64,000 nt of DNA, from NCBI RefSeq assembly GCF_005405305.1, contig NZ_BJDU01000004.1:1-64000 (forward strand), in the 5' to 3' direction. The DNA is from Companilactobacillus formosensis. GTDB lineage: Bacteria > Bacillota > Bacilli > Lactobacillales > Lactobacillaceae. Both the position numbers and the translations under genes were made by a program. The first letter of the stretch is position 1. Every line of letters starts with the position of its first letter. Shown piece by piece: positions 19,578 to 59,853 of the stretch. A model generated the notes under the pieces. The model ran no database searches. It was not told the DNA's origin and was given only the letters and a program-made list of their open reading frames with translations.

Positions 19578-21035
19578 ATGTCATTTTTCGATAGAAAAAA
19601 GAAAGAAAACGATGATAATTATTCTGATCTAAACAATCCTTCATATCAAAATCCCCAACCGGATCAAAATAATTTTGATCAAGCACAAAATCAATATAAT
19701 GATGCTCAAATGAACAATGGTACGCAATTTGGCGGCAACGATTTTAACCAACCAAGTCAAGCAGCACAATCTGGTAGTAATGATTATTTCTTTGGTCAAA
19801 ATCAACCACAAATGCAGCAACAACAAATGGACCCCAACCAAAATCCACAACCGGGGATGGATAGCGGTGAAGAGTGGCAATATACTGAACAAAATTTGCA
19901 AAATACTTTGGATCAAAGTGCTGATTTGAAGTCACAATTACGTAGTCAACTATTAGCTGACCGTAGTTATTGCAACCATATTTTGAGAAATGTTGGCAGT
20001 GATCAAGTAGATGAAAGAAAGCAAGCTACTGATAGAATTGATCAAATCAACGCTTCATTGAAAGAATGGTTCGGAACGGATGAAATGGCTAATGAGATTT
20101 ACTTAGACGTCAATAGTGACTATTACATTTTCACTGATGATTTAGCTGCTAATCCAGATAGCGACACGACAAATATGTGGCAACAATTGACAATGACTAT
20201 GGCCGAGAAGGGTCTAATCGCTAATGCAATCTCAGTCACTTATAATGACCAAATTGATGAAGCTTGGATGAATTATCAAAATGCTGGTTTCGTAGATGGC
20301 AATGCCTATCTATTGAATATGTACAATGATTTGCAAGGACGTAATATGAATACTCCTGTTACGCCTGCTGAAATTCCTTTCGATGCTGATTATCGCGTTC
20401 AACACGTCAGTGATAAAGTTGATAAAATTTTGGATGCTGATGATAAATTAGTTATGGAAGTTTCTCGAAATGCCAATCATCAATTACAGATTATTCGCCA
20501 TTACAAAGATGGGACTCAATTGTTGAGTCGTGATATTTTCGATGTCAACGGAGTAATCTCAGCTACCCAATTTTACGACCACAGAAATGCCAATAAAGTC
20601 GTTCGTGAGAACTTTTATCGTCAAGATGGAACATTGGTCTTGATTAAGAGTTATACGGCTGAGGAACCTTATATTCAACTATTCAGTGAAGGCAATGTCT
20701 TGATCAGTACTTTTGATAATGATGAAGATTTGATTTTTTGGTGGTTGAAGAATCAAGCTTTGAAACAGAACGCTTCAACGATTTTTGTTTCAATTAATTC
20801 TGAATATTATAAGAAATTGTTGGAACTCAGAGATTACGGATTTGAAGTGGTTCCAATCGTTATGAAACAAAGTGAAAATGCTCAAGAAGTGTCAGATTTG
20901 ATTGAAGGTAAAGACAAGATTAACGCTGTCTTGGCTGGATCTGATCAAGTTAATACTTATTTGAACAAGAATTCGAAGAATAAATTGGATATTACTACTT
21001 TAAAAGAATTAGATACACCTATTTATAAAGAATAA
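19578..21035 (+). CDS. Q/N-rich protein with TarM/GtfA-like beta-sheet domain
   Basis: The 485-residue cytoplasmic-looking protein starts with a disordered Q/N-rich segment (about residues 10-110). The middle is helical. The C-terminal half has repeated strand-turn patterns (IIRHYKDGTQLLSRDIFD, RENFYRQDGTLVLIKSY) that resemble the extended beta-sheet domain at the N-terminus of TarM/GtfA-type glycosyltransferases. No GT-B catalytic domain with an EXE motif follows, so it may act as a partner or chaperone of a glycosyltransferase (inference). It follows a permease gene by 73 bases. Confidence 0.45.
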   Translation: MSFFDRKKKENDDNYSDLNNPSYQNPQPDQNNFDQAQNQYNDAQMNNGTQFGGNDFNQPSQAAQSGSNDYFFGQNQPQMQQQQMDPNQNPQPGMDSGEEWQYTEQNLQNTLDQSADLKSQLRSQLLADRSYCNHILRNVGSDQVDERKQATDRIDQINASLKEWFGTDEMANEIYLDVNSDYYIFTDDLAANPDSDTTNMWQQLTMTMAEKGLIANAISVTYNDQIDEAWMNYQNAGFVDGNAYLLNMYNDLQGRNMNTPVTPAEIPFDADYRVQHVSDKVDKILDADDKLVMEVSRNANHQLQIIRHYKDGTQLLSRDIFDVNGVISATQFYDHRNANKVVRENFYRQDGTLVLIKSYTAEEPYIQLFSEGNVLISTFDNDEDLIFWWLKNQALKQNASTIFVSINSEYYKKLLELRDYGFEVVPIVMKQSENAQEVSDLIEGKDKINAVLAGSDQVNTYLNKNSKNKLDITTLKELDTPIYKE

Positions 21036-21056
21036 AATTATCATTATCGATTAGAT

Positions 21057-21101
21057 AACATCTATTCAGAATTCCTACTATCGTCTGAATAGGTGTTTTT
21101 T
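21057..21101 (+). terminator. Intrinsic terminator
   Basis: A 14-bp stem (AACATCTATTCAGA/TCTGAATAGGTGTT) is followed by a T run. Confidence 0.85.
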
Positions 21102-21118
21102 AATATTAAGATTAGGAT

Positions 21119-21287
21119 CTAGTCCGGAATAGCAGAGAAAATTGGCTCAAATGTGAAATTTCTCTTGGCAATTTATTGCCTAGTGAAAGGTCGAGCTTGA
21201 AGACTTTGCCCGAACTTGGGCTTAGCAAAGGCTTCAAGTCGTGCCCACATTGTTCCAGCCAAATTTTCTCTGCTATGGAGGACGGAA
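21119..21287 (+). ncRNA. Structured intergenic element, copy A
   Basis: Between a terminator and gpmA lies a block rich in nested pairing. The outer stem (21130-21147 with 21257-21275) has 18 bp and one bulge. The small hairpin GGCAATTTATTGCC is at 21167-21180. A long inner hairpin spans 21195-21239 (CTTGAAG...CTTCAAG). A second copy at 58944-59096 on the other strand keeps the layout and the TTTA loop but changes paired bases on both sides. This suggests a conserved RNA or a repeat that is selected for its fold. No promoter is obvious. Confidence 0.6.
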
Positions 21288-21396
21288 TATAACCATTTAT
21301 TTTGCAATTTAGTCAAACTTAATAAAGAAACTTTTTTTTATTGCCAAATTCGTGTAAAATGTACTTTGTTAAAGAAATGAAAAGAGGATCATATAA

Positions 21397-24688: not shown

Positions 24689-25309
24689 TTATCCCTCCTT
24701 GCTAAAACGTTTTTTAATTCCTGTAACGAGTTTCTGAAAATTTTGATAGAGACTGTGAGAAATTTGCGAATAAGTAAAGACGTTGTAGTATAAAGCAATG
24801 ACTAAGATGTAGAAAACCATTCTTCCAATAATGGAGTGTCCGATAAAGAAGGCACCACCACCGGCAAAGTGTACGATGACAATAATTAATGCTAATCGAA
24901 GCACGTTTGCTAAATAAATCCAAAGAATACCAAAGATTCCGAAGAAGGTTTTTTCATAACGATTAAAGATGGGGAAAAAAACGACAATACTGATATAAGC
25001 CATCGTTTCGATAATCCCAGAACATTCATAGTCAATCGTCATCGTCAGCGGTTGAGTAGGATTATTGATGCTGATCAGACCGTAACGATTCATAACTTCA
25101 CTCATATTCGTAAGATTTCCGAACCATTTGACACCATTGATAACTGAATGAGTGAAAAACCAAACCCAATAGGGATCACTGAAGCCAATTAGAATAAAAA
25201 AGAGCCCGCCAGTTCCGATAAGAAAGAAGAATGCTGGAACGTGAGCTCTTTTTAAAACGGATAGTAAGTATATCCAAACAACGATGCCAATTACTAAATA
25301 AATACTCAT
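24689..25309 (-). CDS. xrtG: Exosortase family protein XrtG
   Basis: The 206-residue polytopic membrane protein has the exosortase/archaeosortase catalytic triad: cysteine in DYECSGIIE, arginine in LANVLRLAL and histidine in FIGHSIIGRM. About six helices are visible. XrtG enzymes of Firmicutes are predicted to process proteins with a C-terminal Firmicu-CTERM tripartite tail. The immediately upstream gene encodes such a protein and overlaps it by four bases (ATGA), so they form one operon with the glycosyltransferase. Confidence 0.88.
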   Translation of the reverse strand: MSIYLVIGIVVWIYLLSVLKRAHVPAFFFLIGTGGLFFILIGFSDPYWVWFFTHSVINGVKWFGNLTNMSEVMNRYGLISINNPTQPLTMTIDYECSGIIETMAYISIVVFFPIFNRYEKTFFGIFGILWIYLANVLRLALIIVIVHFAGGGAFFIGHSIIGRMVFYILVIALYYNVFTYSQISHSLYQNFQKLVTGIKKRFSKEG

Positions 25310-58514: not shown

Positions 58515-58940
58515 ATGAAAAACATTGGATATTTAGCACAAGATATTTCTATCTTACACAGACAATATTACAAGGATACGAGGGAAAAATTCAACCAAAT
58601 CAACTTAAATCCGACCGCCGCTTGTATTTTGTTAGCTGTTAGTGATTATGAAAATATTAGTCAAAATCAAGTTGCCAGATCTTTAGTTATCGACAAAGGT
58701 TTAGCCACCAGAGAAATCAATAAGATGGAAAAACTCAACTATTTAACTAAGTCGAATGGAGCAGGTAAGACGAAGATTTTGAATTTGACCGAAACTGGCA
58801 ACAAAGTCGTTGATACTGTCCAACATATTCGTAGTCAATGGTGGGAAGACCGCTTCGCCAAATCCGGAATCACTCCCGACAGTCCACTAGTTTCTTCCAT
58901 TGAAGCCGTAGTTTCTACTATTATTGACCCAATAGAATAA
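58515..58940 (+). CDS. MarR family regulator
   Basis: The 141-residue product has the winged helix of MarR proteins: LLAVSDYENISQNQVARSLVIDKGLATREINKMEKLNYLTKSNG and ILNLTETGNKVV. It is divergent from alsS-alsD across an 18-bp palindrome and probably controls them in response to acid or acetate (effector inferred). GGAGTGAA precedes the ATG. Confidence 0.88.
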   Translation: MKNIGYLAQDISILHRQYYKDTREKFNQINLNPTAACILLAVSDYENISQNQVARSLVIDKGLATREINKMEKLNYLTKSNGAGKTKILNLTETGNKVVDTVQHIRSQWWEDRFAKSGITPDSPLVSSIEAVVSTIIDPIE

Positions 58941-58943
58941 TAT

Positions 58944-59096
58944 GTCGTCGTCCGTTCGGCCCTGAAAAATGCTGGGACGCTGCTGACGCAACTTGAAACA
59001 GGGCATGTTGTTTCCAAGCTTGGTCTTTAAGTAAGCGATAAATCGCTAACGTAAATTTGGCGGCTGGGCATTTTTCGAGGCTCTCACTCCCGACTA
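58944..59096 (-). ncRNA. Structured intergenic element, copy B
   Basis: Read on the minus strand it opens CTAGTC and ends GGACGA as copy A does. It shares AAATTT, AAAGNC, AGCTTG, TGCCC, TTCAAGT-G and CCAGC blocks in the same order. The small hairpin is AGCGA-TTTA-TCGCT here (59034-59047) against GGCAA-TTTA-TTGCC in copy A. The outer stem (GAAAAATGC/GCATTTTTC) and inner stem are also rebuilt with different bases. It follows the terminator of the DtxR-like gene. Confidence 0.6.
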
Positions 59097-59135
59097 GATA
59101 GTAACTTTTAGATTTTTTTAAAAATTTATAAAACT

Positions 59136-59195
59136 AAAAAAAGAGCGTTTGACAACGCGTGATTGTAAAAATCATGTGTCTTCAAACGCTCTTTT
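59136..59195 (-). terminator. Terminator of the DtxR-like gene
   Basis: A 14-bp stem (AAAAGAGCGTTTGA/TCAAACGCTCTTTT) with an inner hairpin includes the stop codon and ends in a T run on the minus strand. Confidence 0.85.
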
Positions 59196-59853
59196 CCATT
59201 GCGGTAACTTTGTCGACCCGAATCATCTTAGTGATATTTTTGGGTAAAATCTGTTTGATATTGTTCCGCAAGTTTAAAACCACCATTGAGTGATCGTAGT
59301 CGTTGATATTTAAGATCTGAATTTGATCACCTAATTGGATATCGATGTTACTGAGAATCTGGAAGAGATAATTATCTTCCGCAAAGTTGATAATTTTCCA
59401 ATACTTATCAGAAGTAACTTGTTTAGATAATAAGGAAGAATCAGAAAATTCCGGAATAGGACAGTTAATAGGAATAATATTCCCATGTGGGCAAGTTTTT
59501 GGATAGTCTAGATAAATATTTAAGCGGTCAATCACTAATGGATCAGGGTTCTCACACAATTGACTGGCTTTCTCATAAACTTGGCCTAAAGGAATGTTTA
59601 ATTTGTCTAACAACCAGATTTCTAAGAGGCTGTGTTGTTGAATTAAAGGAATAACGGTGTTCAAACCCTTTTTCGTCAACTTAGTTCCATAGTATTTAGT
59701 ATATTTAACTAAACCTAACTTTGATAAATGCTGCGTACGATCGGAAATAGAAGCCTTGCTGACATTGGCTTTGACAGCGAGATCGATATTGTTAACATTT
59801 TGAAAGCTTCCACCTAATTCGAATATTAATCGTAAAAAATTTAAATCATTCAC
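59182..59853 (-). CDS. DtxR/MntR-family metalloregulator
   Basis: The 223-residue product has an N-terminal winged helix (LAVKANVSKASISDRTQHLSKLGLVKYTKYYGTKLTKKG). A DtxR-type metal/dimer domain follows (HSLLEIWLLDKLNIPLGQVYEKASQL; DYPKTCPHGNIIP), and a C-terminal SH3-like FeoA-type part. It faces usp-mntH and so probably represses Mn(II) uptake when manganese is high. The start is GTG, the only choice in frame, with GGTGA upstream. Confidence 0.8.
   Translation of the reverse strand: MNDLNFLRLIFELGGSFQNVNNIDLAVKANVSKASISDRTQHLSKLGLVKYTKYYGTKLTKKGLNTVIPLIQQHSLLEIWLLDKLNIPLGQVYEKASQLCENPDPLVIDRLNIYLDYPKTCPHGNIIPINCPIPEFSDSSLLSKQVTSDKYWKIINFAEDNYLFQILSNIDIQLGDQIQILNINDYDHSMVVLNLRNNIKQILPKNITKMIRVDKVTAMEKSV

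Follow-up and report, generated by a model that had tools for sequence, protein, structure and literature searches.

Two structured intergenic repeats of Companilactobacillus formosensis are very probably worn copies of a new MITE family with a likely ISL3-type partner and a target preference

The two structured elements that lie on opposite strands of a 64,000-nucleotide stretch of the Companilactobacillus formosensis genome (contig NZ_BJDU01000004.1, positions 1 to 64,000; hereafter the window) are very probably worn copies of a new family of structured MITEs that has a likely ISL3-type partner and a target preference. The MITE reading is supported by TIRs, by 7-bp target duplications and by presence or absence at orthologous sites. 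In units with good duplications, the duplicated target overlaps the apical loop of a stem-loop, which is often terminator-like. The element thus appears to jump into the loop of hairpins that end transcripts, and to keep its own fold while its sequence changes. Genomes are denoted below by G numbers, G000 being that of the window.

The profile of the family located both elements where the original prediction had placed them. Copy A is a 171-nt hairpin unit at 21117..21287 on the plus strand (profile coordinates), with a long outer stem, a three-way junction and two arms. One arm, P2 (21159..21188, plus strand), is a small hairpin with a T(TT)A loop, and its lower stem is very variable across the family and is exchanged block-wise among copies; the other, P3 (21189..21245, plus strand), is a long hairpin. 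Copy B, at 58944..59099 on the minus strand (profile coordinates), is a shortened hairpin unit of another subfamily. It is contained in a 187-bp segment (58941..59127, minus strand) that begins at the stop codon of the ORF at 58515-58940. The description of the elements as non-coding holds, in that no ORF of at least 80 aa overlaps copy A or copy B; the nearest upstream ORFs on the plus strand end at 21035 for A and at 58940 for B. As had been stated, each copy is preceded on its 5′ side by a terminator-like stem-loop, judged by eye: at about 21058..21101 (plus strand), with a T-run, for copy A, where it resembles the spacer terminators of complete units, and at about 59138..59196 for copy B. 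Compared with 200 dinucleotide shuffles, the fold of copy A has a z of -6.2 and that of copy B a z of -2.7. An intact TIR or target duplication was not found at either copy, and their membership in the MITE family therefore rests on the hairpin and on their relatives.

The consensus fold consists of the long outer stem P1 and a three-way junction that bears the small hairpin P2 and the long arm P3. In an alignment of 77 matches (36 genomes), which was fitted to the model and is thus biased towards the structure, 96.5% of 3909 pair cells were standard and 53 of 56 pairs showed changes on both sides. Covariation was 0.736, against a mean of 0.188 for shuffled and 0.066-0.101 for slid pairings. 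A MAFFT alignment of 97 copies gave the same kind of pair types; the lower stem of P2 was represented by 22 distinct 4-mers in these copies and was perfectly paired in 71 of them. The kept pairing with differing bases that had been seen between copies A and B is a property of the wider family, in which the sequence blocks named in the original prediction largely fall in conserved columns. Strong conservation is seen in the columns of the loops, the junction and the internal loops. In P2 the loop (alignment of 97 copies, columns 55-60) is T(TT)A in most cases and C(TT)G next most often, and a few loops contain GAA. Loops of the T(TT)A, C(TT)G and GAA types are unusually stable in DNA mini-hairpins.

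To search for relatives, we used BLAST and a covariance model, R1, built from 45 diverse copies and applied at a threshold of E <= 0.01. With copy A as the BLAST query, 55 full and partial matches were found in the own genome, and of the other genus members searched 12 of 24 were matched, but none of 16 genomes of other genera; a search with copy B matched 11 of 36 genus genomes. The covariance-model search, which had been proposed as a check, matched 34 of the 36 Companilactobacillus genomes, as well as three further genera. The matches in the 36 genus genomes summed to at least 1,596, as no more than 78 were scored per genome, with 57 in the own genome (A and B among them); only G006 and G046 lacked any. 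A count for G049 by itself gave 115. Under stricter filters, a sample drawn from the whole order gave matches in 8 of its 246 genomes and in 4 of its 64 genera, the own genus being one of them; all were in the same taxonomic family. The protein encoded upstream of copy A has 10 relatives, all from Companilactobacillus, and the best of them, from C. futsaii, is 96% identical. Along the G049 chromosome, matches seem to be less dense in the central bins (800-1400 kb) than towards the two ends. In the own genome, an N run between two tandem partial copies (L016 1406-1503) is probably a gap that the repeat caused in the assembly. At L018 (1476-1646) a chimeric copy has its 5′ arm from one subfamily and its 3′ arm from another, and its outer stem pairs poorly for that reason. 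The Rfam comparison, also proposed earlier, brought no family of Rfam 15 up to the gathering score anywhere in the window, and at the two sites even permissive thresholds gave only hits far below that level. Plasmid and phage collections searched with copy A gave no match, and among the titles found in a literature search none names a Companilactobacillus repeat of this kind.

Complete units have a constant anatomy. A 25-bp TIR (GGTTCTTTCTTAAGTTAGGTTAGTG type) is followed by 5-7 nt, the 171-nt hairpin, a spacer, a second hairpin in the opposite orientation, again 5-7 nt, and the other TIR; the spacer usually contains a terminator-like hairpin. Six complete units that we measured were 513-528 bp long, with the TIR 5-7 nt outside each hairpin. 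The 115 matches of G049 form 81 clusters, of which 30 are '-+' pairs, 2 are '-++' and 49 are single, and pairs in any other orientation within 700 bp were absent from this genome. With up to 3 mismatches allowed, the TIR pattern was matched 12 times in G022, 22 times in G049, once in G003 and never in G001, while the reversed pattern, used as a control, gave no match. At a length of 7 bp, the bases expected to be duplicated agreed in a fraction of 0.589, whereas mismatched partners gave 0.325, over 33 candidate rows that include some orthologous or overlapping ones. The fractions at other lengths were 0.34-0.36 (2-6 bp), 0.436 (8 bp) and about 0.30 (9-10 bp). Five units (L006, L033, L049, L261 and L271) have perfect 7-bp duplications.

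The sites of copies A and B differ between related genomes. The 187-bp segment with copy B is present in G049 and missing in G011 and G022, both of which have the stem-loop found 5′ of copy B at their empty sites. Because B is shared by G000 and G049, loss in G011 and G022 rather than gain is possible. At the site of copy A, which G011 shares, G022 and G049 carry a different terminator between the same genes. The own genome has instead the segment at 21037..21295 (plus strand; junctions approximate), which comprises A and its own terminator-like stem-loop. Precise loss of a hairpin between short CGGAATA direct repeats, with the flanks kept, was also seen at two places in G000 (C4 about 154724-154730 and C9 about 24953-24959), which is the outcome that slippage over a hairpin in DNA would give. 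The simple mobile repeat with identical stems that the original prediction had set against its own reading is thus right as to mobility, but not as to the stems, which differ.

To examine the targets, we scored a row as positive when a stem of at least 8 pairs had an apical loop overlapping the duplication. The initial set comprised 12 units together with 2 ISs, hand-picked for both ends and mostly for a plausible duplication; of these 14, 12 were positive (L266 and L260 were negative). This figure is weakened by the result for all 33 candidate rows, in which 13 were positive. The background was 210 of 1000 random positions and 140 of 573 positions after stop codons (21-24%). The better the duplication, the more often the target is a loop: this was found in 5 of 5 rows with 7/7 matching bases, in 6 of 11 with 5-6/7 and in 2 of 17 with 0-4 of 7, the last being at background. 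Where a row has no duplication, the unit may be a false one or may have decayed. A number of the targets are plainly terminators, with an A-run, a stem and a T-run. Furthermore, convergent gene pairs are enriched around the copies (21 of 69 clusters vs 75 of 471 intergenic regions) and divergent pairs are depleted (7 of 69 vs 129 of 471), in counts taken with a simple ORF caller from three related genomes whose orthologous sites were counted repeatedly. A counter-case is an insertion in G022 (case 42), which lies between divergent genes with no terminator visible by eye.

The presumed autonomous partner is an ISL3-family IS with a transposase of 608-609 aa, of which two intact examples were found. 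The first (L335, in G008) is 1,996 bp long and encodes a 609-aa transposase (L335 2453-4282), with the TIR GGTTCTTTCTTAAACTTGGTTAGAA and the 8-bp duplication GTTTTGCC; the second (L336, in G005) is 1,971 bp long and encodes a 608-aa transposase, with the TIR GGTTCTTTCTCAAGTTTGGTTATAA and the 7-bp duplication CATCTGA. The duplications of both are located in stem-loop tops, and their ends agree with the MITE end at about 20 of 25 positions. Both transposases contain PF01610 (6.8e-27 and 3e-23); PF14690 was over the cut-off in L335 (3.3e-6) and under it in L336 (8.7e-4). Duplications of 8 bp are known for the ISL3 family, and L335 has this length, whereas L336 and the MITEs have 7 bp. No family hairpin is present inside the two intact ISs, and in G008 a diverged one (36 bits) closely flanks the IS. 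Both ISs have a long terminator-like hairpin near their left end, ahead of the transposase gene (L335 2340-2410, L336 2240-2300). In G042, a remnant of an ISL3 transposase (L283; PF01610, 6.9e-6) is found with hairpin pieces between two full hairpins, and in G016 an ISL3-like ORF (L337) ends within a weak hairpin match (27 bits). The L337 protein, searched against 301 genomes of the taxonomic family, matched 44 of them. Only two of these matches were strong, those in G008 (271 bits) and in G005 (210.5 bits); the other 42 were at 39.8 bits or less, and G000 and G049 gave no match. The ISL3 frames of G022 are all of 418-480 aa. Present-day mobilisation in G000, G049 and G022 by the 608-609-aa transposase is unproven.

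Other candidate mobilisers were rejected. The ordinary ISL3 elements of 418-480 aa in G022 and G049 have different ends, of the GGCTCTTTGTCAAATCG type. An IS3-type element found twice in G022 (domains were scanned in one copy, and the second has the same ORF translations) and the other genes in four large gaps near copies were not partners. This two-ORF element (rve, HTH; L092 10470-12064 and L093 16582-18176) lies in or beside hairpin repeats, as if these were its target. A Y1 (RAYT) transposase was rejected because it is absent from the carrier genomes G000, G022 and G049. Of two isolated TIR regions of G049, one (L280) contains ORFs that might include a further partner.

The original prediction had ascribed the kept pairing to selection on RNA structure. 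This is unsupported as stated, since the family is mobile, its GU:AC ratio is about 2:1 and its helices are exchanged as blocks. The corresponding explanation for the whole family, a functional structured RNA (an sRNA, a leader or a 3′ UTR element) whose fold is selected and whose mobility is secondary, would account for the strong covariation, the conserved unpaired blocks and the enrichment of copies at gene 3′ ends. It would also fit the better folding of the finding strand, which was seen in 72 of 97 copies, with a consensus energy of -46.6 against -38.8 for the opposite strand. We nevertheless consider it unlikely. In RNase P from 30 genomes of the genus, GU made up 10.7% of pair cells with a GU:AC of 312:8 (39:1), whereas in the hairpin family GU made up 2.4-3.0% with GU:AC of 115:60 and 117:50, a comparison between sets of unequal depth (mean identity 0.90 vs median 0.63) whose cells are not independent. 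A control with 11 distinct tRNAs, usable for the GU fraction only because ARAGORN brackets hide AC mismatches, gave GU in 12 of 237 pairs (5.1%). As this value is nearer to that of the family than the RNase P value is, the argument from the GU fraction is weakened and the GU:AC ratio is the main point. Flanking genes read the elements in sense 63 times and in antisense 52 times (69 clusters), the copies come and go at orthologous sites, Rfam offers no match, and an unsystematic look showed no constant gene partner; all of these argue against a functional RNA. We read the constraint as largely, not wholly, strand-symmetric. The roughly twofold excess of GU over AC, together with the better folding of the finding strand, indicates that some one-strand preference remains, and reading from both sides would also allow an RNA-level constraint on both strands.

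The near-exclusive Watson-Crick pairs and the block swaps of helices point to hairpins at the DNA level. In 48 copy comparisons at orthologous sites of G000, G022 and G049, the flanks were 86-98% and the elements 58-99% identical. In the 26 comparisons with an element identity above 80%, 104 double Watson-Crick changes were found against 54 other pair changes (19 GU, 10 AC and 25 other). Whole helices are replaced block-wise; for example, P2 and the tip of P3 differ between C9:42204 and G049:56259 while the remainder is nearly unchanged. Such swaps can arise by conversion among copies, by transposition into a site already occupied or by template switching, and template switching is described in PMC8794818 as a non-RNA route to pair-preserving change. 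The block swaps, the scarcity of GU or AC intermediates and this published mechanism would fit an unselected fold, in which the inverted repeats of inert transposon debris are kept perfect by template switching and conversion between copies. We regard this as doubtful, for correction between arms leaves the conservation of loops, junction and internal loops unexplained, and full-length matches to the shape occur in the three further genera. Paired inverted hairpins at gene 3′ ends are also REPIN-like, which would suggest a REP/REPIN-like element moved by a Y1 transposase on single-stranded hairpins. Such an origin is highly improbable, as the three carrier genomes named above, which lack Y1, have 57 to 115 matches and the matchless G006 has a Y1 transposase; moreover, TIRs with 7-bp duplications are not known to be features of RAYT systems. 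Among the genomes surveyed, Y1 was absent from G016 and G046 as well, and present in G011, G021, G001, G006 and G043; G006 also has an ISL3 element.

Returning to the MITE family, we propose that the 608-609-aa ISL3-family transposase moves, or moved, the units and would act at the top of terminator hairpins. The hairpins may be kept Watson-Crick at the DNA level by strand-symmetric selection, by templated correction with block conversion between copies, or by both, and on co-transcription either strand would form a structured 3′ end or leader. Only tentatively do we suggest that an ISL3-type transposase might recognise folded DNA, both at the target, where a terminator hairpin would have its top extruded, and within the element, in its three-way-junction hairpins. 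If structure-guided DDE transposition of this kind were true, the covariation would be a record of selection on DNA folding and not on RNA, and the three-way-junction hairpins would be conserved as DNA shapes with nearly free stem sequence. Strong covariation is often regarded as proving that an RNA is functional; in the present case it occurs within a mobile DNA element and in a largely strand-symmetric pattern, and the GU:AC ratio provides a simple test that separates RNA-level from DNA-level covariation. A family of this size in a food-fermentation genus may shape the 3′ ends of transcripts. It also lends itself to studies of how elements transpose into terminator loops and of how long hairpins evolve by template switching, block conversion and selection.

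Several known systems can be compared with the family. Integron attC sites are DNA hairpins conserved in structure and variable in sequence, and their relation to the present hairpins is one of analogy only. BOX, RUP and SPRITE of Streptococcus pneumoniae are described in parts of PMC3049150 as high-copy structured intergenic repeats, and RUP is termed a MITE in a passage of PMC3733652; they belong to another host group, and the likeness drawn here is one of description. The text of the 2024 review of prokaryotic MITEs (PMC10969869) does not contain the terms Lactobac, ISL3 or EFAR. ISL3-family ISs (PF01610, PF14690) share with the family the transposase of the presumed partner, GGTTCTTT-type ends and duplications of 7-8 bp. 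They differ in that the ordinary elements of G022 and G049 are of 418-480 aa with GGCTCTTTGTCAAATCG-type ends, while the partner belongs to the longer 608-609-aa group. Terminator targets are unmentioned in several passages of PMC9208149 on ISL3. In enterococci, Efa-1 is a 163-bp E. faecalis family with paired stem-loops, according to part of PMC2267715. A single E. faecalis record of 747 kb, searched with no positive control, gave no R1 match, and repeats in a 450-kb part of it gave no match to the hairpin profile (best E 1.4). The repeats of this record (L285-L304), which reach about 180 bp and have two stem-loops each, are ones that we take to be EFAR; such EFAR-type repeats look like two simple stem-loops, unlike the present family. 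Identity with EFAR was thus unsupported in this one record, with no profile relation. By analogy, EFAR, listed among MITEs in a passage of PMC3733652, nevertheless appears to be the closest published counterpart, both families being foldable, modular, non-coding repeats of about 170 bp. The likeness would extend to the targets: in the present family stem-loops were the target in all five units with perfect duplications and in 13 of 33 rows, and stem-loop sequences were reportedly integration targets of EFAR in the work of De Gregorio in 2009 (FEMS Microbiol Lett).
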